Shown: piece by piece, positions 10,449 through 26,919 of the stretch | Layout: each line of letters starts with the position of its first letter | Position numbering within the stretch: position 1 is the stretch's first letter | Assembly (NCBI GenBank): GCA_036227345.1 | Contig: CP109468.1 | Span: 3,658,001-3,722,000 of the forward strand | Length of the DNA stretch: 64,000 nt | Origin: Streptomyces sp. NBC_01463 | GTDB lineage: Bacteria; Actinomycetota; Actinomycetes; Streptomycetales; Streptomycetaceae | Direction: 5' to 3' | Notes under the pieces: model-generated | Database searches by the model: none | Told to the model about the DNA's origin: nothing | The model's input: only the letters and a program-made list of their open reading frames with translations | Made by a program: the position numbers and the translations under genes

Positions 10449-11105
10449 ATGCGCATTGTCATCGCAGGTGGACATGGTCAGATCGCGCTGCGGCTCGAGC
10501 GGCTGCTCGCTGCGCGCGGGGATGAGGCGGTGGGCGTCATCCGTAATCCGCAACAGAGCGAGGACCTCCGGGCGGTAGGTGCCGAACCCGTGGTCCTGGA
10601 CCTCGAGTCGGCCACCGTGGAGGAGGCCGCCGAGGTGCTGCGCGGCGCCGACGCGGCGGTCTTCGCGGCCGGCGCGGGTCCCGACAGCGGCACGGGCCGC
10701 AAGGACACCGTGGACCGCGGGGCCGCGGTGCTCTTCGCGGACGCGGCGGAGCGGGCGGGGGTGCGGCGTTATCTCGTGGTCTCGTCCATGGGCGCCGACC
10801 CGGACCACGCCGGCGACGAGGTGTTCGACGTCTATCTGCGGGCCAAGGGCGCGGCGGACGCGTACGTGCGCTCCCGTACGGCCCTGGACTGGACGATCCT
10901 GCGTCCCGGGATGCTGACGAACGACGCGGGCACCGGCGAGGTGCTGCTCGCCGCGTCGACCGGGCGCGGCCCGGTGCCGCGCGACGACGTCGCGGCGACG
11001 CTCCTGGAGCTCCTGGACACACCGGCGACGGCGGGCCTGACGCTGGAACTGATCTCGGGCAATGTGCCGGTGTCGGTCGGCGTGAAGGACGTCGCGGGCA
11101 ACTGA
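10449..11105 (+). CDS. NAD(P)-binding atypical SDR (SDR_a5-like)
   Basis: This 218-residue Rossmann protein begins MRIVIAGGHGQIALRLERLL, with a GxxGxxA nucleotide loop. YLVVSSMGAD and DWTILRPGML are typical of the atypical SDR subgroup related to YhfK/NmrA. It lacks a clear Tyr-x-x-x-Lys pair in the classical place (VYLRAKGAAD may serve). No good Shine-Dalgarno is visible, so it could be leaderless. Substrate unknown. Confidence 0.82.
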   Translation: MRIVIAGGHGQIALRLERLLAARGDEAVGVIRNPQQSEDLRAVGAEPVVLDLESATVEEAAEVLRGADAAVFAAGAGPDSGTGRKDTVDRGAAVLFADAAERAGVRRYLVVSSMGADPDHAGDEVFDVYLRAKGAADAYVRSRTALDWTILRPGMLTNDAGTGEVLLAASTGRGPVPRDDVAATLLELLDTPATAGLTLELISGNVPVSVGVKDVAGN

Positions 11106-11135
11106 CGCCCGCTGCCGCCGCACCGCCCGCCGCGG

Positions 11136-11585
11136 TCAGTCCCCCGTGGCGGGCCGGACGGTGATCCCGTGCCGCTCCAGCAGGGCGGCGGTGACGCCGT
11201 CGCCCACGCGCAGTTGGCCGGCGAACGTACCGTCATGGACGGCGCCGCGCCCGCAGGAAGGACTGCGGGCCATCAGCAACGCCTCGGTGCAGCCGGCCGC
11301 GCGCGCCGCCTCCAGCGCCCTGTGGGCGCCGTCCACGAACGCGTCGGTCACATCGCGTCCGGTGTCGTCGACGACCCGGGCCCTGCCGTCCAGGACGTCG
11401 TGCCCGTCGCCGCCGGTGATCTCGGCGGGCCGGCGGGGCGTGGGCAGCCCGGCGGCGACCTCGGGGCAGAAGGCGACGGCCCGCCGCCCGGAGAGGACCG
11501 CGGCCGTCTCCGCCGAGGCCCTGCCCCGCCCGTCGAAGCGGCAGGGCACACCCCGCAGACACGCGCTGACCAGTACGGATTCCAT
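11136..11585 (-). CDS. DUF523 family protein
   Basis: This 149-residue protein begins MESVLVSACLRGVPCRFDGRG and contains ARSPSCGRGAVHDGTF, the cysteine-containing signatures of DUF523 (COG1683). Family function is not established; conserved cysteines suggest a metal or redox role. The ATG at 11585 is favoured by a GGGGAGG upstream, over an ATG 7 codons earlier. It is the last chromosomal gene before the integrated element. Confidence 0.85.
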   Translation of the reverse strand: MESVLVSACLRGVPCRFDGRGRASAETAAVLSGRRAVAFCPEVAAGLPTPRRPAEITGGDGHDVLDGRARVVDDTGRDVTDAFVDGAHRALEAARAAGCTEALLMARSPSCGRGAVHDGTFAGQLRVGDGVTAALLERHGITVRPATGD

Positions 11586-11645
11586 GGACGCCTCCCCTTC
11601 GGTCACGGCACTCGCATCTCGCCGGCCACTCCAGGCACAACAGAG

Positions 11646-11679: not shown

Positions 11680-11732
11680 GTGGCGGCGCCAGGGTTCGAA
11701 CCTGGGTAGGCTGAGCCGGCAGATTTACAGTC
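11680..11732. repeat. Left attachment site, truncated tRNA-Tyr 3' half
   Basis: These 53 bases are identical to 26837-26889. They cover the T-arm, variable arm and 3' side of the anticodon arm of tRNA-Tyr on the minus strand. Beyond 11732 the sequence no longer matches a tRNA, so this copy is a remnant and not a gene. Confidence 0.93.
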
Positions 11733-11968
11733 CGCGCCGTACAGGTCCCCTGAACTGGCCCTACTTGCCTCGGAAGTTCGCCTGCCCCACGGGAGGCCCA
11801 CACGCACCCTTCTGAGCGCGGTGGGGCTTCAACGGCAACCCCTCTCGGCAGACCGGCCTTTCGGCGGGAATGGCATTTGCAGCAAGGCGCCACCGCGTGG
11901 TTCCCTTAACGCCGCGCCGTATCCCAGCACGTGAAAAATCCCCTAAGACGGCGCCGAAGGACAGAGCC

Positions 11969-12781
11969 ATGCCTAAGGCGAAGTATGACTTCGATCTCCC
12001 CAAGCATGAAGTGAAGTACGGGGTTCCGGTTTTGACCGGCGAACTCAAGATCGACCCAGAAGCGCAGCGGACTCTCAATGAGAAGCGTGCTCGGAGCATC
12101 GCGAACAAGATGGTCAGCGAGGCTCTCGGCTCAGTGATCATTTCGCAGCGGTCCAACGGGGATCTGTACATCGTCGACGGACAGCATCGGGTGCGTGCAT
12201 GCCAGCTGGCCGGCATCGAAACCATGATGGCGGAGATCCATTACGGCCTGACGCAGGCCCAGGAAGCAATCCTCTTCCTCATCAAGAACCGGGAATCCCA
12301 CAAGCCTCGCCCCATCGACGAGTACCACGTGGGCCTCACCGGTGGTGTCCCTCTCTTCGTCGACACGAACGCGGTCCTCGACAAGCACGGGCTGACCCTC
12401 GGGTCGACGTCCACCAACGGCGTAGGCGCCGTATCCGGAGCGCTCCAGATCGTTGACCGCTTCGGCGCCGAGATCTTCGACCGCACGCTCACGGTCGCCG
12501 AGACAGCTTGGGGGCGCTCTCAGGACACCTGGGACGGCATGCTCCTCGGTGGTATCGGTATGTGCCTCGGTCGTTGGGGCGGCGTCATCGACGACAAGGA
12601 ACTCGCCAAGAAGATGCTGGCCATGGGAACGGCCATGAAGTGGCGCTCCGAGATTCTCAGCCAGTCATCCCGTGGCGGGTTCAACAACAGCGGTACCGGC
12701 TCTCGCGTGACCACGGCCTACCGCCTCGTTGTCGTCGCATGGAACAAGGGCCGCAAGGCCGAGAACCGCATCGACGCCTAG
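11969..12781 (+). CDS. ParB-like nuclease-fold protein (DGQHR motif)
   Basis: This 270-residue protein has the ParB/Srx-fold signature IVDGQHRVRACQLAGI at about residues 70-85, preceded by the usual 'position in list of sites' strand (SVIISQRSNGDLY). No helix-turn-helix like that of true ParB is apparent. It is the first gene inside the left att site, with more A/T at third positions than the chromosome. The ATG at 11969 gives a natural N-terminus; the upstream extension is Arg-rich and unlikely. Roles in such elements include partition, DNA modification guidance or nuclease activity; none can be chosen here. Confidence 0.72.
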   Translation: MPKAKYDFDLPKHEVKYGVPVLTGELKIDPEAQRTLNEKRARSIANKMVSEALGSVIISQRSNGDLYIVDGQHRVRACQLAGIETMMAEIHYGLTQAQEAILFLIKNRESHKPRPIDEYHVGLTGGVPLFVDTNAVLDKHGLTLGSTSTNGVGAVSGALQIVDRFGAEIFDRTLTVAETAWGRSQDTWDGMLLGGIGMCLGRWGGVIDDKELAKKMLAMGTAMKWRSEILSQSSRGGFNNSGTGSRVTTAYRLVVVAWNKGRKAENRIDA

Positions 12782-13439: not shown

Positions 13440-14003
13440 TCACGGTCTACCGACAGCCAAGAGCCGCTCCGGCAACACCAAATGTGCCGCCGACCTCTGC
13501 GCCAACCAGCCGGACCTCCGGTGTGAAGGCGCCTCCGTCCGCACGTGCTTAAACCCTAGATTCTCGTAGTACGCATGGAGCCCTGGGTTTGTCCGCCAGG
13601 TGTCGATACGCACCCACTCTCGCCCTTCAAGCGTCGCCACACGAGAGGCCCAATCCACGATGCGAGCTCCGAGCTGTCGACCCGACGCAGCTCTGGCAAC
13701 GATCAACTTGTATAGGTAGAAGGCGGATTCGGGCTGATCCTCGTCGTTCCAGAAGTCGCGGTCGATGGGGCCGCGGCTCACGGTAGCCAGCGGTGAGCCC
13801 GCGTCGTCGACGACGATCCACGCACGGCCGTCATCAATCGTGGCGTGCCACTTGTCGATCGCCCTGGCGCCAGCTTCCCGATCGTTCCACTGGTCCGTGC
13901 CCTTCGAGTGCAGCCATTGCTCAGCCTCTGTCCTCAGCGCCATGAGCGCTGGCACGTCGCCCCCCGCAGCGGGGCGGAGGTACTCAGTCGGCATCGACTT
14001 CAT
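13440..14003 (-). CDS. GNAT family N-acetyltransferase
   Basis: This 187-residue GNAT protein has the acetyl-CoA motif A at IVARAASGRQLGARIVDWA (Q/R-x-x-G-x-A type) and motif B at NPGLHAYYENLGF. It would transfer an acetyl group to a small amine. It overlaps the end of the upstream GntR gene by 20 bases, so the pair is an operon. This looks like element cargo; a tie to antibiotic or antimetabolite resistance is possible but not shown. Confidence 0.83.
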   Translation of the reverse strand: MKSMPTEYLRPAAGGDVPALMALRTEAEQWLHSKGTDQWNDREAGARAIDKWHATIDDGRAWIVVDDAGSPLATVSRGPIDRDFWNDEDQPESAFYLYKLIVARAASGRQLGARIVDWASRVATLEGREWVRIDTWRTNPGLHAYYENLGFKHVRTEAPSHRRSGWLAQRSAAHLVLPERLLAVGRP

Positions 14004-14754
14004 AGAGGATCTTGTGCCTGTCTCCTGGAAGGATCGTCACCATGCAGCGGAGAGGCTTCCCCTCTCCGTCGTAGCCAGTCCTGGTGTGCTCTGCAACCGG
14101 TGTAGCTGCTGGCAGGGCGAGCAATTGGGCCTCATGGAGAGTCGGCATGCGTACCGCGATCTCATCCCGGTATTTCGCCTGAACCAGGCCGACGGAGGCC
14201 AGAACGCCACCGGGAGCTGACACGTCGCGGGGCTCCATCAAGGATGTCCCTGCCACAAGCTCCTGCGGGAAGTAGGAGTCTGCGAGCGCGTAAGGCCGGT
14301 TGTCGACGTATCGGACTCGCTTCCGCGCCACGGCCAGACCGTCAGCGGGGAGGGCTAGTGCTTCGCGGACGTGCTTGGGGGGTTCGACGATCGAAACGCT
14401 GATCTCCTGCCGAGGCGTTTTCCCTTCGTCAGCAACGGCGCTGGCCCACTGGTCGCCGGCAGTCTGGCCGTCGACGGCGGTTGAGTGCCGCTTGCGGCTT
14501 TCCAGGGTCGTCCAGTTCCACACAACGGGCGGGAAGTCCTCGCGGACGTACTTCCCCTGCCCCTGCCCCGTCACGACCAGCCCCTCGTCCACGAGTACGC
14601 GGACGCCGGCGCGGATGGTTTCGCGGCTGTAGCCGTACTGAGCCATCAGCTTGGACTCGCTGGGCAGCGCCTCGCCACCACCGAGAAGACCGGATTCAAT
14701 CTGCCCTCGCAGGTCAGAGGCAATTTCTTGAGCCTTCGTTAGGCCGCGTCTCAC
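13984..14754 (-). CDS. GntR family regulator with UTRA domain
   Basis: This 256-residue protein has an N-terminal GntR winged helix (LPSESKLMAQYGYSRETIRAGVRVLVDEG). Its C-terminal UTRA/HutC ligand domain ends in GKPLRCMVTILPGDRHKILYEV. The GTG at 14754 is preferred because TGGAGG lies just upstream; the longer frame would run into the operator-like repeats. KorSA of pSAM2 is a GntR protein that keeps the element silent, so this is the likely master repressor of the AICE. It is divergent from the transfer region. Confidence 0.87.
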   Translation of the reverse strand: MRRGLTKAQEIASDLRGQIESGLLGGGEALPSESKLMAQYGYSRETIRAGVRVLVDEGLVVTGQGQGKYVREDFPPVVWNWTTLESRKRHSTAVDGQTAGDQWASAVADEGKTPRQEISVSIVEPPKHVREALALPADGLAVARKRVRYVDNRPYALADSYFPQELVAGTSLMEPRDVSAPGGVLASVGLVQAKYRDEIAVRMPTLHEAQLLALPAATPVAEHTRTGYDGEGKPLRCMVTILPGDRHKILYEVDAD

Positions 14755-14780
14755 GCATCCTCCAGTGTCCGGCACTCCAA

Positions 14781-14873
14781 CTCCTCCGTACAAGTTAGAC
14801 CAGGGGGCTTGACTCTCCAAGAGCGAGTGGGCATTCTCATGTCACGGCACTCCTCCAGACAAGTTGTACAGGG
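14781..14873. promoter_or_regulatory. Divergent control region with direct-repeat operators and a promoter
   Basis: Two similar 24-25-bp blocks at 14781-14805 and 14850-14873 share CTCCTCC, then ACAAGTT and AC-AGGG. Between them, TTGACT (14809-14814), a 17-base spacer and CATTCT (14832-14837) form a plausible rightward promoter. The repeats thus bracket the promoter, which suits repression by the adjacent GntR protein. Binding is inferred. Confidence 0.55.
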
Positions 14874-18864: not shown

Positions 18865-20928
18865 ATGACCACCAACACCGCCTCTACGGGGCCGGTGTGG
18901 GACTGGGCTGCCGGTCACGGACCCGTGACCGGCGCCCTTTCCGCCACTACCGGAGCCCTTGCAGTAGCCACCACCGGAGCAGCTACCGGGATGCCCCCGG
19001 GTTGGGCCCTGACCGTCGGCGCGGCCGGCGCGATCGGCCACACCATCAGCTCCCTGCGCGACCGACTGTCCGCCCGCACCATCGCGATGCGCTCCGCATC
19101 GTGGCTGGTCGGTGCCGGATGGACGACGTGGGCCATGACCACCGGGCCTCTGACCTGGGCCGCACTCGGTTCCCTGGCCACGATCGGTGTCGGGATCGGC
19201 GCCACCGCCCGCTCCACCCTCCTGCACGAGGAAGCCCGCGAGCTGGAGGCCATCGCCGCCGATGAGCGCCAGGTCTCCCGGGAGCTCTCCGCGGAGCGTC
19301 GGGCGATCGCCGCGGAGTGGGTGGACCGGGTCCAGCGGGTCTGCAACCTCACCCTGCGGATCGTCGCGGTGGAGATCTGGCCCACCGGCACCGGCTTCAC
19401 GATCGACGCCGAACTCCCCGCCGGCGGAACCACCTACGACCGGATCGCGCAGCACTCCGCCGCCCTGTCTGCCGATGCGAGGCTGCCCCACGGATGCACG
19501 GCGGTGGCCTCGCAGGGCATCCACCAGGGCCGGGTGCTCATCGACGTGACCACGGTCAACGTGCTCTCCGAGGAACGCACCTACCCGACCGACTACAGCC
19601 CGCTGTCGATCTACACCGGGATCCCGTGGGGGTATCGCACCAACGCCGAAGAGATCTGCGTGTTCCTGCGCGAGCAGTGCGCTCTGGTCGTCGGCCCCAC
19701 CGGGTCCGGCAAGACCAACATGGTCCACGTCATCCTCGCCGGGTTCGCCCGCACCACCGACGTCCTGACGTGGGTGATCGACCTGAATGCCGGATCGGCC
19801 GGACTGTCCTGGGTCCGCCCCGCACTGGACGCCAACGGGGCCCCCGTGGAAGGGGTGCGGCCCGGCATTGACTGGCTCGCCTCCACCTACGAGGAAGCCG
19901 TCCTGATGCTCGATGCGGCCCTGGCGATCGGGCTGCGCCGGAAGGTCGCCTATCAGGACCTGATGGCCCAGCAGAACACCGACCAACTCCCCATCAGCGC
20001 GAAGATCCCGCAGATCATGCTGGTCATCGATGAGGGTGCGGAGATCCTGACCAGCACCGACCGGTCCATGAAGACTCTCGCGAAGAAGATCCTCGAAGTG
20101 ATCCGCATGCTGCGCGCCATGGGCATCCGCACCGTGCTCACGGCGTTGGGTGCGACCGGGGCCGTCCTCGGGAACCTGATGATCCGCCGGGAGGCCAAGG
20201 CACGGGTCGTCCTTACTGGCGGTGAGGTGGAGGGCATGGACCTGAGCAAGGTGTTCCCCGGCAGCCGCGGACTGCGGGTGGACCAGGCCCCGTTCAAGGG
20301 CGCCGGGTTCATGGGCACCCCGGAGTCTGCGGCGGCGCTGTTCAAGAACTGGCGGATTCTGCCCAACCAGATCCGCGACATCGTCCACGCCACCACCGAC
20401 ATGCACCCCACCCTGGACGACGTCTCCACCAAGGCCGCGGGCACCGCCTACAGCTCACGCTGGGATGCCGGGCGCACCGCGTGGATGCGGGACACCGCCA
20501 ACGCCCCGGCCGAGGAGGCCGGCCAGTCCGCGGCGGGCGGGCTGAACCTGTCCGCGCTCCGCAGCGAACCGGCCGGACCGGTGACGGAGGAGGACGCGGC
20601 GGTCCGGGCGTTCATGGAGCAGATCGATGCTCAGTTCGCGACCGCGCCGGAACCGGCGAGCATGCCGGAACCGCCGGCCCCGGCGGGGCTGAATCTGTCC
20701 GCGCTCCGTGACAGCGACGACGAGAACGGACCCGCGTGGGTGGCCGATGCGGTCGCCGCGATCAAGGCCGCGGGCCCGGCCGGCATGAAGCCGTCCGCCG
20801 TCGCGGACACCGTGGGCAAGGACCGCAAGACGGTCCGCTCCGTTCTCAAGGCAGCGGCCGAACGCGGTGAGTTGATCTACCGCGAGAACGGGCCGCGCTC
20901 CGTCTACGTCCACCCCGACGACGCCTGA
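18865..20928 (+). CDS. FtsK/SpoIIIE-type DNA translocase (TraB/TraSA-like transfer pump)
   Basis: This 687-residue protein has membrane segments in the first 110 residues. Its motor domain carries Walker A GPTGSGKT (277-284) and Walker B MLVIDEG (D389, E390). At the C-terminus is a winged-helix domain (DAVAAIKAAG...TVRSVLKAAAERGELIY), like FtsK gamma. Streptomyces TraB proteins move double-stranded plasmid DNA between hyphae and read 8-bp repeats through this winged helix. Two copies of GLNLSALR flank a linker before that domain. An 8-bp repeat cluster lies just downstream and may be its target. Confidence 0.92.
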   Translation: MTTNTASTGPVWDWAAGHGPVTGALSATTGALAVATTGAATGMPPGWALTVGAAGAIGHTISSLRDRLSARTIAMRSASWLVGAGWTTWAMTTGPLTWAALGSLATIGVGIGATARSTLLHEEARELEAIAADERQVSRELSAERRAIAAEWVDRVQRVCNLTLRIVAVEIWPTGTGFTIDAELPAGGTTYDRIAQHSAALSADARLPHGCTAVASQGIHQGRVLIDVTTVNVLSEERTYPTDYSPLSIYTGIPWGYRTNAEEICVFLREQCALVVGPTGSGKTNMVHVILAGFARTTDVLTWVIDLNAGSAGLSWVRPALDANGAPVEGVRPGIDWLASTYEEAVLMLDAALAIGLRRKVAYQDLMAQQNTDQLPISAKIPQIMLVIDEGAEILTSTDRSMKTLAKKILEVIRMLRAMGIRTVLTALGATGAVLGNLMIRREAKARVVLTGGEVEGMDLSKVFPGSRGLRVDQAPFKGAGFMGTPESAAALFKNWRILPNQIRDIVHATTDMHPTLDDVSTKAAGTAYSSRWDAGRTAWMRDTANAPAEEAGQSAAGGLNLSALRSEPAGPVTEEDAAVRAFMEQIDAQFATAPEPASMPEPPAPAGLNLSALRDSDDENGPAWVADAVAAIKAAGPAGMKPSAVADTVGKDRKTVRSVLKAAAERGELIYRENGPRSVYVHPDDA

Positions 20929-21150: not shown

Positions 21151-21459
21151 ATGAACGACCGCGAACCGCCGGGCACCACCATCCGGCACATCCCCGCCGA
21201 CGACTGGAACCGCGCCCAGACCACCGGCCAGCCCGTCGTCATCGTCATCCACGACACCAACCGCCACGGCATCGAGTGGCGGCGCTGCCTGGTCCCGTTC
21301 GCCGTGGCCGGCGCCATCGTGCTCGGCGGCTGGGGACTGGTCGCCGTGCTGTGCGCCCTGCTCGATGCCGCCGCCCACACCATCACCGTCATCGCGGGCG
21401 CCGCCGGACCGATCGGGATCGGCGGAGGCCTCACCCTCAAGCTCGCCCGCAAGCACTAG
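21151..21459 (+). CDS. Small membrane protein of the element
   Basis: This 102-residue protein has a polar N-terminus and two hydrophobic segments near residues 49-72 (CLVPFAVAGAIVLGGWGLVAVL) and 75-97 (AAAHTITVIAGAAGPIGIGG). It ends in a KLARKH basic tail. GGAAGGAG precedes the ATG. It lies between the candidate transfer locus and the TGT-like gene. Family not recognised; a spread-type role fits the context. Confidence 0.68.
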   Translation: MNDREPPGTTIRHIPADDWNRAQTTGQPVVIVIHDTNRHGIEWRRCLVPFAVAGAIVLGGWGLVAVLCALLDAAAHTITVIAGAAGPIGIGGGLTLKLARKH

Positions 21460-21544: not shown

Positions 21545-22393
21545 ATGACTCAACCTGTCCCCATCCGGGAGCTCCCGCCCCCGGGTGGCATGAGGTTCTA
21601 CCTCACCACCCACAAACGTCACTGGGTGAAGCTCACCGATAAGCCGCTGTTCCTGAAGTCCGAGCACTTCGCGGTGGCCCGGACTCTCCCGGAAGCCCTT
21701 GGCCCGTACGCGGTGGACTCCGGCGGGTTCTCGGAACTCCAGCGTCACGGCCGCTGGACCCGCACCCCTCGCCAATACGCGCAGGATCTGCGACGTATCT
21801 GGGAGTACGTCGGCCCCTACGAATGGGCCGCCGGACAGGACTGGATGTGCGAAGACCTCATCATCCACGGCGGCCAGGCCGGACCCCTGCACTTCGTCGG
21901 CACCCACCTCAGCGTCGCCGAACACCAGCGCCGCACGGTGGAGAACTTCCTCGAACTACGCTCCCTTGCCCCCGATCTGCGGGTCATCCCCACACTCCAG
22001 GGCCGCACAATCCCCGAGTACGAACACTGCCGGGAGCTCTACGAACGCGCCGGCGTCAACCTGCGCGCTGAGCCCACCGTGGGACTCGGGTCGGTGTGCC
22101 GGTTGCAGTCGACCAACGAGGGCGCGGCCATCGTGACGGCCATGGCCTCCCATGGCTTACGCCTGCACGGCTTCGGCTTCAAGACCCTCGGCCTCGCCAA
22201 GGTAGGACACCTCCTGGCCTCCGCGGACTCCGCCGCATGGAGCTATCACGCCCGTAGGCGCCCGCCCCTGCCTGGCCACACACACAAGAACTGCGCGAAC
22301 TGCTTCGACTACGCAATGCGCTGGCGCACCCGCGTCCTCGGCGCCCTCCCCACCTGGCACCAACCCACCTTCGACGGGAGGGAAGCTGCATGA
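21545..22393 (+). CDS. TGT/DpdA-like base-exchange enzyme (TIM barrel)
   Basis: This 282-residue protein resembles the tRNA-guanine transglycosylase superfamily. DSGGF (starting D58) matches the TGT signature DSGGFQ. QDWMCED could provide the second acidic site. TLQGRTIPEYEHC and VGLGSVCR resemble the 'QGG' and 'GLxxGE' segments, and LHGFGFKTLGL matches the barrel end of DpdA-like proteins. HTHKNCANC (H245, H247, C250, C253) could bind zinc, as in TGTs. DpdA proteins insert 7-deazaguanine bases into DNA. No preQ0 pathway genes are nearby. The ATG has CTGGAGG upstream; the stop overlaps the next start (ATGA). Confidence 0.72.
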   Translation: MTQPVPIRELPPPGGMRFYLTTHKRHWVKLTDKPLFLKSEHFAVARTLPEALGPYAVDSGGFSELQRHGRWTRTPRQYAQDLRRIWEYVGPYEWAAGQDWMCEDLIIHGGQAGPLHFVGTHLSVAEHQRRTVENFLELRSLAPDLRVIPTLQGRTIPEYEHCRELYERAGVNLRAEPTVGLGSVCRLQSTNEGAAIVTAMASHGLRLHGFGFKTLGLAKVGHLLASADSAAWSYHARRRPPLPGHTHKNCANCFDYAMRWRTRVLGALPTWHQPTFDGREAA

Positions 22394-23292
22394 GCACCCA
22401 CCTCCTGAACGCCGCCCTGAACGCGGCCGAACGCGGCTGGCACGTCTTCCCGCTCCGTCCCGGCGACAAGCGCCCCGCCCTCCACGGCGAGACCGCATGC
22501 CCCCGCACCGGCCCCTGCACCACCGGCCACCTGAAGTGGGAGCAGCGCGCCACCACCGATCCCGACCGCATCCGCGCCGCCTGGTCCACCGGAGCGTGGA
22601 ACGTAGGGATCGCGACTGGCCCGTCCGGGCTGGTCGTCGTCGACCTCGACATGCCCAAGCCCAACAGCGAAGCGGGCACGCCTGACGGCGCGGACAACCT
22701 TTCGGCGCTCTGCGAGCGCGCCGGGCACCCGGTGCCCCGCACCCGCACGATCCGGACCGCGAGCGGCGGTACGCACCTGTACTTCACCGCCCCCGCAGCC
22801 GCCCGCCTCCATAACACCGCCGGAACCCTGGCACCCCTGGTCGACACCCGGGCATGGGGCGGGTACGTCGTCGCCAGCGGCAGTGCGGTCGGCGGCCGCC
22901 GCTACAGGATCGAGGGGCCCGCCCTCATTAACCCCCTGCCCGCGTGGCTCCTGCAGGGTCTCGTGCCCCCGCACCCCAAAGCCGCGGCCGTAGTCCCCGG
23001 GCCTGCCCCGGTGCCGCTGCGGTCCCACCGGTACGCGGAAACCGCCCTCCAACGCGAGCGCGACACCGTCCGGGCCGCGGGAGAGGGCAGGCGCAACACC
23101 ACCCTCCTCGCGTCCGTACGGGCCGTGGGCCGGTTCGTGGCGTGGGGAGACCTTCCCCGCCACGTCGTCGAAGCGGCTTTTCAGGCAGAGGGCGAGACCG
23201 CGGGGCTGCCTCCGGCCGAGTGCCGCGCCACCATCACCAGCGCCCTGGACTGGTCCATCCGCAGCTGCCGGCCCCGACCGGAGGCAGCATGA
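22390..23292 (+). CDS. Primase-polymerase (bifunctional DNA primase/polymerase domain)
   Basis: This 300-residue protein has an archaeal-type prim-pol domain. Evidence is the N-terminal LNAALNAAERGWHVFPLRPGD entry strand, catalytic acids D85 and D87 in VVVDLDMPK, and GGTHLYF with the conserved His. It should prime and extend DNA at the element's origin. AICEs of one class use a prim-pol plus a DUF3631 helicase as replication initiator, and the helicase is two genes downstream. Starts overlap (ATGA) on both sides, so the four-gene run is one translational unit. Confidence 0.88.
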   Translation: MSTHLLNAALNAAERGWHVFPLRPGDKRPALHGETACPRTGPCTTGHLKWEQRATTDPDRIRAAWSTGAWNVGIATGPSGLVVVDLDMPKPNSEAGTPDGADNLSALCERAGHPVPRTRTIRTASGGTHLYFTAPAAARLHNTAGTLAPLVDTRAWGGYVVASGSAVGGRRYRIEGPALINPLPAWLLQGLVPPHPKAAAVVPGPAPVPLRSHRYAETALQRERDTVRAAGEGRRNTTLLASVRAVGRFVAWGDLPRHVVEAAFQAEGETAGLPPAECRATITSALDWSIRSCRPRPEAA

Positions 23293-23630
23293 CCACCCGC
23301 GCCAATCCCCACCTGAAAAGCCTCCCCACCCCGCCCCGGCATCGCCGAACCAGCCCTGACCAGATGAGCGATGGGGCGCCAAAGGTCGTCGCCGAAGGCG
23401 TCCCCGTTGCTGTTCGCCCTGACCAGCAGACAGGAGACGGCCGCTACCCCATCGCCTGGCTCACGATCAGCGCGCCCCGCGGCGCGACCCCGAGCGCAAC
23501 CAGCGTCTGTGAGTGCGGCCGCAACCTCTTCGCCGCCGGCCACCGCAAGGCCCTGGCCCTGATCGCCGACCACGCCGACCACAAAGCCCGCTGCCCGCTC
23601 CGTGCCGACCAGGAAGGCGCTGCCGCATGA
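23289..23630 (+). CDS. Small protein with possible zinc finger, replication operon
   Basis: This 113-residue protein has a disordered N-terminal half and a C-terminal CECGRNLFAAGHRKALALIADHADHKARC segment (C-x-C, H, H-x2-H, C), which could coordinate zinc. It is overlapped at both ends by the prim-pol and helicase genes, implying a stoichiometric role in replication. No family assigned. Confidence 0.68.
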   Translation: MTTRANPHLKSLPTPPRHRRTSPDQMSDGAPKVVAEGVPVAVRPDQQTGDGRYPIAWLTISAPRGATPSATSVCECGRNLFAAGHRKALALIADHADHKARCPLRADQEGAAA

Positions 23631-24889
23631 ACGCCACACAGACCACCCCGCCCGTCGACGGGGCCGCCCTCCTCGACGAAGTGGAGGCCTTCCACCGCCG
23701 CTTCAACGTCTTCCCCACCGAACACGCCTACGTCGCTGTAGCCCTGTGGGATGCACACGCGCACCTGATGGACGCACTCGACGGCACCGCCCGCATCGCC
23801 TTCCTCAGCCCCGAACCGGGCTCCGGGAAGTCACGGGCCCTGGAGATCATCGAAACCCTCACCCCCCGCGCGGCGACCACCGTCAATGCCTCCGCGAACG
23901 CTCTGTTCCGGCTCGTCTCCGCGGACGAGGGAACACCCACCCTCCTCTTCGACGAGATCGACACCGTGTTCGGCCCCAAGGCGGGCGGGAACGAGGAAGT
24001 CCGCGGCTTCCTCAACTCCGGCTACCGGCGCGGCGCCAAGTCCCTGCGCTGCGTCGGGGACGGATCCGAACAGAAGGCAGCCTTCTTCCCCTCGTTCTGC
24101 GCGGTCGCCATGGCCGGTCTCGGGTCTCTGCCCGACACGATCCTGACCAGGTCGGTCATCATCCGCATGCGGAAGAAGGCCCCCAACGAGAAGTGCGAGC
24201 CCTACCGGCGCCGCGTCCACGAGAAGCAGGGCCACGTCCTCCGGGATCGGCTCGCGGAGTGGACCGCCACGCTGCACGACCAGGTAGCCGATGCATGGCC
24301 CGAGATGCCCGAGGGCGTCACGGACCGACCGGCGGACGTGTGGGAACCATTGCTCGCGGTCGCGGACGCTGCTGGCGGGCACTGGCCGGCCCGGGCCCGC
24401 CTGGCGTGCATCGAGCTCATCAAGTCCGCGGCCAGCAACGACGAAGCTTCCCTCGGCGTGCGGCTGTTGACCGACCTGCGGGACAAGGTGTTCTGCGGCG
24501 TCGACAAGATGCCCACCGCAGCCATCCTCGAAGTCCTCCTCTCCCTCGACGACGCACCGTGGGACGACCTGAGCGAGGACGGACAGGCCATCAAGCCGCT
24601 GACCGCCCGAAGGCTGTCCAAGCTTCTGAGCCAGTACGTGCGGCCCGACAACACCCCGATCAAGCCCAAGGGCATCCGGGTCGGCAGCACCACCCCCAAG
24701 GGCTACTACGCCGAAGATCTCACCGACGCGTGGAACCGCTACTGCCGCCCCAACCCCCAGGAATCCGCAACATCCGCAACATCCGCAACACCGCAGGTCA
24801 GCGAGGGTGAATCTGTGGCGGAAGCCCTTCCCGGGACCCGCCACATGTTTACGGAATCCGACACACGCACCCTCCGCAGCGTGGTCTGA
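23627..24889 (+). CDS. DUF3631 replicative helicase/ATPase
   Basis: This 420-residue P-loop ATPase has Walker A PEPGSGKS at about residues 66-73, Walker B LLFDEID about 40 residues on, and a C-terminal DUF3631 region (PTAAILEVLLSL, ARRLSKLL, KGYYAEDL). It is the expected helicase partner of the upstream prim-pol. The final 35 residues contain the Ser/Ala/Thr run encoded by three tandem 9-bp repeats that recur outside the gene. The ATG at 23627 overlaps the preceding stop. Confidence 0.85.
   Translation: MNATQTTPPVDGAALLDEVEAFHRRFNVFPTEHAYVAVALWDAHAHLMDALDGTARIAFLSPEPGSGKSRALEIIETLTPRAATTVNASANALFRLVSADEGTPTLLFDEIDTVFGPKAGGNEEVRGFLNSGYRRGAKSLRCVGDGSEQKAAFFPSFCAVAMAGLGSLPDTILTRSVIIRMRKKAPNEKCEPYRRRVHEKQGHVLRDRLAEWTATLHDQVADAWPEMPEGVTDRPADVWEPLLAVADAAGGHWPARARLACIELIKSAASNDEASLGVRLLTDLRDKVFCGVDKMPTAAILEVLLSLDDAPWDDLSEDGQAIKPLTARRLSKLLSQYVRPDNTPIKPKGIRVGSTTPKGYYAEDLTDAWNRYCRPNPQESATSATSATPQVSEGESVAEALPGTRHMFTESDTRTLRSVV
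24763..24789 (+). repeat. Three tandem 9-bp repeats (ATCCGCAAC) in the helicase gene 3' end
   Basis: ATCCGCAAC occurs at 24763 and 24772, and a third, partly degenerate copy at 24781. The same word recurs directly and inverted at 24936-25012. This looks like an iteron array that is partly coding. Confidence 0.75.
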
Positions 24890-24938: not shown

Positions 24939-25012
24939 CGCAACAGAAACGGCATCCGCCACAGATTCAGGCCGCTGACCAGCAATGTTGCGGCGTGGCG
25001 GATGTTGCGGAT
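24936..25012. repeat. Inverted iteron array between helicase gene and xis
   Basis: Forward words ATCCGCAAC (24936-24944) and ATCCGCCAC (24954-24962) face reverse words GTTGCGG (24987-24993), GTGGCGGAT (24995-25003) and GTTGCGGAT (25004-25012). With the three coding copies this makes about eight related sites within 250 bases. Candidate replication origin, or excisionase binding sites before xis. Confidence 0.65.
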
Positions 25013-25057
25013 CCCCCAGAGCGAAGACGAGAGACCACCTCGAAGAGGAGTCACACC

Positions 25058-25249
25058 GTGGCCCGCCCCAAGATGCTCAAACTCTCCGAAGTCCTCAAAG
25101 AGATCGACATGAGCCGCGCCGCCTTCTACCGGATGCGCGCCCGTGGGCAGGCACCCCGCCTGCAGAAGCTGCCGAACGGCCATCTTCGGGTGAGTCGTGC
25201 CGACTTGGACGCGTGGTGGGAGCGCTGCGGACAGCGCGCTGTCGCCTGA
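25058..25249 (+). CDS. xis: Excisionase, MerR-type helix-turn-helix
   Basis: This 63-residue winged-helix protein has the AICE Xis pattern LKLSEVLKEIDMSRAAFYRMRARG...LPNGHLRVSRADLDAWW. It bends DNA at the att sites and steers the integrase toward excision. The GTG start has AGAGGAG 7 bases upstream; no other start gives a complete domain. It lies between the iteron array and int, as in pSAM2-type elements. Confidence 0.88.
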   Translation: MARPKMLKLSEVLKEIDMSRAAFYRMRARGQAPRLQKLPNGHLRVSRADLDAWWERCGQRAVA

Positions 25250-25268
25250 CCTGTCCGACACACAACAT

Positions 25269-25300
25269 GGGGCCCGCCGTTCTGGCGGGCCCCTCTCTCT
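25269..25300 (+). terminator. Intrinsic terminator between xis and int
   Basis: Arms GGGGCCCGCC (25269-25278) and GGCGGGCCCC (25284-25293) form a perfect stem with a 5-base loop, followed by TCTCTCTTT. It lies 19 bases after the xis stop and ends 10 bases before the int start, overlapping the int leader. Confidence 0.82.
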
Positions 25301-25310
25301 TTGGAGCACC

Positions 25311-26675
25311 ATGCCCACGTACGACGTACGGATCTGGTCCGTCCGGCAGCGCAAAGACCGCGGCCAGTCCTCGGCGGAACTTCGCTGGAAGACCGGCCAG
25401 ACTCCACACTCACAGACGTTCCGGACCAAAACCCTGGCCGATGGGCGCCGCGCGGAATTGCTGCGAGCGGTGCATAGCGGTGAGCCCTTCGATGAGGTCA
25501 CCGGTGTGCCGGTCAAGGAGCTGCGGGAGCGCAACGAGGTGAGCTGGTATCAGCACGCTCGCGACTACATCAAGATGAAGTGGACGCACTCCCCCGGCTC
25601 CACCCGGCGGACTCTCGCCGAGGCCATGGCAACTATCGCCCCCGCTCTAGTCACGGACACCAAGGGAATGGCCGATCCTGGGAGCGTGCGCGTCGCGCTG
25701 TACAGCTGGGCGTTCAACATGACCCGGCGCGCCGAGGAGCCGCCTGCGGACGTCGCCAAGGTGCTGGCCTGGTTCGAGCGGAAGTCACTGCCCGCGTCGG
25801 CCCTGGCTGACCGGATGCACGTACGGGCAGCTCTGGACGCACTGACCAAGAAGCTGGATGGCACCACCGCCGCAGCGTCCACCATTCGCCGGAAGCGAGC
25901 CATCTTCCACAACGCTCTGGGCTACGCGGTTGACGCTGGCCACCTGTCGCAGAACCCTCTCCCCCAGGTTCAGTGGAAGGCTCCAGAGCAGGTAGAAGAC
26001 GAGTTGGACCCTGCCACCGTGCCTGACCCGCGGCAGGCTCTCTCCCTGCTGGATGCCGTACGGATGCAGAGCGCCAGAGGCCGCCGGCTGGTCGGCTTCT
26101 TCGGGTGCATGTACTACGCGGCAGCGCGCCCCGCCGAAGTGATCGGGTTGCGCATCCAGGACTGCGACCTGCCCCGTCGCGGATGGGGCGTGCTGCTGTT
26201 GCGGGAGACTCGCCCCCGGTCCGGATCGGCGTGGACCGACAGTGGAGAGGCGCACGATCAGCGTGGGCTCAAGCACCGCCCGCGGAAAGCCGTCCGCACG
26301 GTCCCGATCCCGCCTGACCTGGTCGCCCTGCTCCGGTGGCATGTCACCGCCTACGGAACAGCCGACGATGGCCGCCTCTTCCGCACCCAGCGTGGCGGTC
26401 TCATCCAGGACACGGGATACGGAGAGGTGTGGGCGGAAGCCCGCTCGCGTGCCCTCACGCCGCTCCAGCGCGCTTCCCAGCTTGCGAAGCGTCCGTATGA
26501 CTTGCGTCACGCGGCTGTCTCAACCTGGCTCAGTTCAGGGGTGGAGCCACAGGTGGTTGCGCAACGTGCCGGCCACAGTGTGGCCGTTCTCTTCCGCGTC
26601 TACGCCAAATGCCTGGAGGGGGCCGCAGCGACGGCTAACGCTCGGATCGAAGCAACGCTGAGGGGAGGGAGGTAG
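25311..26675 (+). CDS. int: Tyrosine recombinase integrase
   Basis: This 454-residue site-specific recombinase has an N-terminal arm-binding region, a SAM-like core domain (about 90-230) and a C-terminal catalytic domain. Catalytic candidates are R273 (AARPAEVIGLR), R399 in PYDLRHAAVS, H422 in AGHS and nucleophile Y431 in VYAKCLEG. The usual first His of box II is Tyr, which is frequent in actinobacterial integrases. The ATG at 25311 follows TTTGGAGC. It reads toward the intact tRNA-Tyr, and its stop is 162 bases from the att core. Confidence 0.95.
   Translation: MPTYDVRIWSVRQRKDRGQSSAELRWKTGQTPHSQTFRTKTLADGRRAELLRAVHSGEPFDEVTGVPVKELRERNEVSWYQHARDYIKMKWTHSPGSTRRTLAEAMATIAPALVTDTKGMADPGSVRVALYSWAFNMTRRAEEPPADVAKVLAWFERKSLPASALADRMHVRAALDALTKKLDGTTAAASTIRRKRAIFHNALGYAVDAGHLSQNPLPQVQWKAPEQVEDELDPATVPDPRQALSLLDAVRMQSARGRRLVGFFGCMYYAAARPAEVIGLRIQDCDLPRRGWGVLLLRETRPRSGSAWTDSGEAHDQRGLKHRPRKAVRTVPIPPDLVALLRWHVTAYGTADDGRLFRTQRGGLIQDTGYGEVWAEARSRALTPLQRASQLAKRPYDLRHAAVSTWLSSGVEPQVVAQRAGHSVAVLFRVYAKCLEGAAATANARIEATLRGGR

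Positions 26676-26836: not shown

Positions 26837-26919
<83 letters not shown>

Follow-up and report, generated by a model that had tools for sequence, protein, structure and literature searches.

The window, that is, the whole 64,000-nucleotide stretch of Streptomyces DNA analysed here, carries an integrative element of 15.2 kb, which a repeat search delimited by two 59-bp repeats (97% match), one of them within a tRNA-Tyr gene. The features of the element are listed by their position in the window.

11680..11738, no strand: att copy, 97% match to 26837-26895
13984..14820, minus strand: GntR/UTRA regulator (PF07702 E 3.6e-21, PF00392 E 1.3e-14)
18865..20928, plus strand: FtsK/TraB-like gene, likely for transfer (PF01580 E 7.5e-4, 19.4 bits, below the cut-off of 24)
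21151..21459, plus strand: small ORF of 102 aa, with homologues 5' of dpdA in some other loci
21545..22393, plus strand: element-borne dpdA-like gene (PF23859), 282 aa (Pfam, PHROG, motif conservation)
22390..23292, plus strand: Prim-Pol replication gene, its start overlapping the dpdA stop in ATGA (PF09250 E 1.9e-46)
23627..24889, plus strand: DUF3631 gene, with a deduced start (PF12307 E 3.9e-59)
24995..25249, plus strand: HTH_17 gene, a likely excisionase (PF12728 E 1.6e-7)
25197..26675, plus strand: tyrosine integrase, ORF as listed, its true start not fixed, overlapping the HTH gene (PF00589 E 2.6e-6)
26837..26895, no strand: att copy inside tRNA-Tyr (repeat search)
26837..26919, minus strand: tRNA-Tyr(gta), the integration target (ARAGORN)

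The dpdA-like gene begins with an ATG at 21545, preceded at a spacing of 8 bases by GGAGG, and ends with a TGA at 22391-22393 after 282 codons. The sole Pfam family of its product is PF23859 ('DpdA'; 235.5 bits, E 8.3e-70, above the gathering cut-off of 27 bits), and PHROG 1279, named 'queuine tRNA-ribosyltransferase', matched the protein at E 2e-70; searches of NCBIfam and PADLOC gave no match, and sequence searches of the PDB found no relative. The reading frame and motifs from which the original prediction was made are all in place, namely DSGGF at aa 58-62, TLQGRT at 150-155, VGLGS at 179-183 and the His/Cys-rich HKNCANC at 247-253, and the observation of a dpdA-like gene borne on the element is confirmed. 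The similarity is well beyond chance, and a set of 4113 candidates yielded 3119 proteins at E<=1e-3. D58 and D228, the predicted catalytic aspartates by analogy with TGT and archaeal TGT, are invariant in 64 family rows and in 48/48 members of the clade described below. The zinc site of canonical TGT has the form CxCxxC...H; the Cys/His site of the dpdA-like protein is HxxCxxC only, and in some relatives, including the L112 protein (P0121) discussed below, C250 is replaced by E.

An integrase, att repeats at a tRNA gene and a Prim-Pol replication protein (PF09250), by which an AICE is recognised, are all present in the element, and its putative transfer protein has the sub-threshold PF01580 similarity given above. 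As had been proposed, dpdA lies between likely transfer genes and replication genes, with the FtsK-like gene and the small ORF on one side and the Prim-Pol gene on the other. The proposed translational coupling to the Prim-Pol gene stands as far as the ATGA overlap of stop and start is concerned, from which co-translation may be deduced. The further claim that no pathway genes accompany the enzyme holds for the window and the element (tblastn at E<=1e-4 found no homologues of VUT, QueC, QueD, QueE or FolE/FolE2 in the window) but not for the host chromosome, which encodes a preQ0 pathway in a Dpd island. PADLOC matched none of the three element proteins given to it (those of dpdA, Prim-Pol and DUF3631), so that no Dpd island was recognised at the element itself. 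A DUF6551/DGQHR-type gene with sub-threshold DndB similarity adjoins the left att site (11870-12781). It was considered as a conserved DpdB-like partner and rejected, no homologue being found in other loci at E<=1e-4.

How is this protein related to other DpdAs and to TGT? We compared a profile of 153 family members with candidate targets and with 161 control ORFs picked by codon bias. The DpdA of phage Holeinone (species Rosebushvirus rosebush; L251) scored 42.5, a value reached by none of the 161 controls (best, 34.8), with an hhalign probability of 75%, and its active-site motifs are collinear with those of the window's protein (DSGGF/DSGAF, VGLGS/VGLGG, LHGFG/FHGWG and ADSAAW/VDSSGW). The DNA of Rosebush is reported to contain dPreQ0 (PMC6884629). 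Unlike the window's gene, the Rosebush-type gene encodes a protein of 346 aa without a PF23859 match and is accompanied by its own full pathway, queC/D/E and folE. The DpdA of the host's own island (G000:C1:6160160-6161530) scored 34.1, with 1/161 controls higher, and gp54 of phage Phegasus 18.5, with 31/161 controls as high or higher. Because PF23859 was matched by none of the Rosebush-type, host island and Phegasus DpdAs, the Pfam name counts as weak evidence. Kinship to TGT was not significant in this comparison: 18 actinobacterial TGTs (a usable protein was obtained from 18 of 30 TGT loci) and E. coli TGT scored 12.9-24.1, with 5 to 124 of the 161 controls as high, most of the alignments were confined to the region around DSGGF, and PF01702 (canonical TGT) did not match the 282-aa protein at E<=1. 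Thus, the assignment to a DpdA branch of the TGT superfamily has gained the backing of Pfam, PHROG and the profile match to a DpdA of the Rosebush species for its DpdA part, but its canonical TGT part did not reach significance; judged from sequence comparison, we regard DpdA kinship as supported and TGT kinship as likely.

The host island DpdA resembles the window's protein in its motifs and is encoded in the same genome, but it has 456 aa, no PF23859 match, and dpdB, dpdC and restriction genes at its side. The same Pfam family is found in the singleton DpdAs of mycobacteriophages, such as that of Oline (PF23859, 466 bits), with which Orion is presumably to be placed in cluster B1; the identity to the window's protein is about 40-45% among the matches listed. 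In these phages, the gene lies among head-tail genes or beside an integrase, whereas the window's gene lies in the replication module of an integrative element. Phages of cluster B1 are described as having no other preQ0 gene (PMC9584339). M. smegmatis, the host of the mycobacteriophage singletons, is likewise described in PMC6884629 as lacking preQ0 genes, whereas the host of the window's element has the pathway. The same paper reports that the DNA of Orion, a singleton phage of a Mycobacterium host without preQ0 genes, contains no 7-deazaguanine, an assay that is uninformative as to what the enzyme does where preQ0 is made. It also reports traces of dADG in the DNA of another singleton, Salmonella phage 7-11 (the family of whose DpdA was not compared here), and a Q pathway in the hosts of DpdA-only phages except Clostridium and Mycobacterium.

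We refer to loci as 'window-type' when their DpdA is at least 65% or 70% identical to that of the window, depending on the analysis. There were 54 such loci, of which 49 were distinct after duplicates between two genome collections were dropped; L114 duplicates L070, and L073, a partial span, was left out of the tree and of the dN/dS estimates. In a midpoint-rooted tree of 140 rows, built by a quick method, the 48 window-type proteins formed one Streptomyces group with an SH-aLRT support of 99, joined by a branch with a support of 81 to a neighbouring group of seven (support 97), five of which are linked to VUT. All 26 motif positions checked are invariant in the 48 complete window-type genes. 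The median dN/dS, a plain Nei-Gojobori estimate, was 0.26 (IQR 0.21-0.31) over the 1102 of 1128 pairs with dS of 0.05-1, four of these pairs lying above 0.5; among 199 pairs drawn from genomes that lack a queC match, the median was again 0.26 (range 0.09-0.43). In the protein search, none of the 30 window-type rows (at least 71% identity) from 24 genomes contained an internal stop; stops marked by the family search in some loci are read as matches extending beyond the end of the gene. The window-type dpdA is a real, conserved gene under purifying selection, and its intactness is unlike the heavy decay that PMC9513070 reports for AICE cargo. Of the 54 window-type loci, 40 contain one or more genes homologous to those for TraB, Prim-Pol, DUF3631, Xis or Int in the window, a count that does not establish an AICE setting for each; the FtsK/TraB-like gene had a homologue in 12/54.

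The gene order of the window recurs in part of the group. In 19 of the 49 distinct loci, the dpdA stop and the start of the following gene share four bases, and 17 of these loci continue with one of two Prim-Pol types, the classes of next gene being assigned by short motifs in a script; Pfam confirmed one type A and two type B genes. By the same motifs, the next gene encodes an SSB in 7/49 loci (one confirmed, E 3e-26), and a Prim-Pol or an SSB in 31/49. The dpdA gene is optional, lying within 1 kb of about six of some 92 Prim-Pol rows listed (at least 50% identity, 199 genomes; hand count). In one locus (L067), a gene similar to DNA methyltransferases lies immediately 3' of dpdA (10861-11592; PHROG 363, E 4e-31). 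A gene similar to it is found in L076, 758 bases 3' of dpdA. In eight of the 49 loci (L059, L060, L061, L063, L064, L065, L073 and L115), a protein of about 150-170 aa starting with (M/V)FEIR is encoded 12-13 bases 3' of dpdA; that of L060 had no Pfam match.

The original prediction had called for a search of the host for preQ0 genes, and such genes were found. About 2.5 Mb from the element, at 6.14-6.17 Mb (G000:C1:6140273-6166011), the host chromosome contains a Dpd island with queC, a radical-SAM queE, queD (PTPS, E 4e-39), folE2 (E 2e-64), a VUT gene and restriction genes. All nine island proteins given to PADLOC were named, as DpdA, DpdB (twice), DpdC, DpdD, DpdE, DpdH, DpdJ and DpdK; a RecQ-like ORF was taken for dpdF, and two ORFs at the positions of dpdG and dpdI had no Pfam match. 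Dpd islands are known in Actinomycetota (PMC11888242). A family search of the whole host genome gave no queF match, and the TGT family was matched in 0/199 genomes of the genus. The absence of these matches in the host suggests that preQ0, rather than preQ1 or queuine, is the base likely to be on hand, and favours its insertion into DNA over tRNA. The same chromosome carries a second dpdA copy, 96-97% identical to the first, at 5.88 Mb (L105, G000:C1:5868000-5886000), in a locus with a different integrase (37%) and a different Prim-Pol type near a tRNA-Arg gene.

Such a supply of preQ0 is not general among genomes with the gene. In 392 genomes, window-type dpdA (at least 70% identity) was present in 24, island-type queC (at least 77%) in 24, and both in five (G000, G155, G159, G215 and G331), an association of 5/24 versus 19/368 (Fisher p 0.011) that falls to 4/23 versus 19/368 (p 0.038) when the window's own genome, G000, is removed, both values being uncorrected for relatedness. 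Any QueC match (E<=1e-3) was found in 49 genomes, six of which had dpdA (6/24 versus 43/368, two-sided p 0.10), so only island-type queC is, weakly, enriched with dpdA. The family search with PF06508 was positive in 184/199 genomes but better than E 1e-20 in only 26, and the weaker matches, in the listed part mostly partial and of 22-29 bits, were taken for other ATP pyrophosphatases. The QueC protein search (E<=1e-3) thus left 18 of the 24 dpdA genomes without a match, and nine of the 13 that were also searched for VUT had neither gene, which leaves most hosts without a known source of preQ0.

Among the best 80 of 380 viral loci, VUT lies directly 5' of the dpdA relative on the same strand in 23 (-19 to 433 bp from match end to match start), que genes are nearby in five, and 52 have neither in the stretch covered. 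All six actinobacterial plasmid records among 23 VUT matches have a DpdA-like gene immediately 3' of VUT, four similar to the window's DpdA and two shorter and resembling Phegasus gp54. These short proteins, of about 190-200 aa and of another family, are encoded directly 3' of VUT on two Streptomyces plasmids and in mycobacteriophage Phegasus (L256 4561-5130, L257 4565-5137 and L254 5656-6267). Hutinet et al. (PMC6884629) found no correlation of YhhQ with any phage group; in the loci examined here, the link between VUT and DpdA is clear. The DpdAs of VUT-DpdA pairs on plasmids and viral contigs (L051, L052, L169, L170, L172 and others) are similar to that of the window and belong to the neighbouring clade, and the PF23859 match of the VUT-linked L112 protein was confirmed. 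Unlike these pairs, the window's clade has no transporter gene: homologues of VUT, Que and Fol were found in 0/54 window-type loci (49 distinct; about 6-21 kb each, 64 kb for the window).

We consider that the element may carry a DpdA-type base-exchange enzyme that inserts preQ0 into the element's own DNA and so protects double-stranded DNA on transfer, and we hold the chances for and against this reading to be about equal. What we observed, namely the family and clade, the intact motifs, the purifying selection, the gene order with its stop/start overlap and the preQ0 genes of the host, is compatible with the following course. The enzyme, probably co-translated with the replication protein, would be produced during excision, replication and transfer of the element. 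Guanines of the element's DNA, a plausible target, would be removed and replaced by preQ0, which in the window's host could be supplied by the chromosomal Dpd island. The FtsK-like pump would then send the marked double-stranded DNA into the recipient, where it might resist restriction enzymes. TraB is reported to transfer AICE DNA in double-stranded form (PMC9513070), from which one would expect these elements to encounter restriction. This explanation does not account for the source of the substrate for copies in hosts without queC. We speculate further, with considerable doubt, that the clade may be a kind of passport enzyme using the preQ0 of other cells, which is without the transporter of the neighbouring clade, either by loss or from the outset, and which marks replicating element DNA as 'self', thereby allowing entry into and persistence in hosts with Dpd islands directed against DNA that lacks 7-deazaguanine. 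The co-occurrence of this dpdA with island-type queC, given above, exceeds expectation.

The maintenance of the gene in hosts without queC or VUT would also be explained if the enzyme exchanged DNA bases for a base other than preQ0, either scavenged or made by Streptomyces. We regard this as unlikely. In its favour, 18 of 24 genomes lack a queC match, and the gene is under the same constraint in pairs from such genomes. Against it, mobile elements switch hosts, so that selection may act in those that make preQ0, and the relatives are linked to supply of the preQ0 type, by VUT in 23 and que genes in five of the best 80 viral loci and by VUT in 5/7 members of the neighbouring clade (joining support 81). 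A little less probable, in our view, is that the fold has been kept while the protein, perhaps a DNA factor that binds guanine, serves replication or excision and leaves no lasting modification. The Prim-Pol or SSB gene that follows in 31/49 loci by motif, the optional presence of dpdA beside Prim-Pol genes and the unmodified DNA of Orion (PMC6884629) would suit such a factor, but none of the 48 proteins departs from the two putative catalytic aspartates or from any motif residue checked.

The original prediction had also allowed that the enzyme might alter a tRNA, and the element does sit in tRNA-Tyr(GUA), a queuosine tRNA, while PHROG and some NCBI names read queuine tRNA-ribosyltransferase. 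That it is a tRNA-guanine transglycosylase acting on GUN-anticodon tRNA nevertheless seems to us very improbable, and the suggestion found no support: TGT matches are absent from all 199 genomes of the genus and queF from the host, and the DpdA with the best match belongs to a phage species that has the base in its DNA. The hint from the insertion site was rejected, because other window-type loci lie near tRNA-Arg, tRNA-Ser or a Glu/Asp/Phe group of tRNAs as well as tRNA-Tyr. The tRNA scan covered 18 loci, 17 of the 54 window-type loci and L106, with no tRNA seen at L121, L124 and L106; the role of a tRNA as att site was tested in the window only.

A 2019 survey of phages left open whether singleton DpdAs have changed function (PMC6884629). 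The present strain has a chromosomal preQ0 pathway alongside a PF23859 DpdA that stands alone on an integrative element, plus a second copy, which makes this question testable within a single strain. If active, the protein would give elements that transfer double-stranded DNA a means of marking themselves, encoded within their replication module. The enzyme family is known; we found no description of such an enzyme in this setting, the replication module of an AICE, in the literature searched.

In another genome (G069), two PF23859 genes with identical scores and opposite orientation lie near both ends of a 9.62-Mb contig (G069:C1:20562-21296 and 9598425-9599159), a pattern such as terminal inverted repeats would give.
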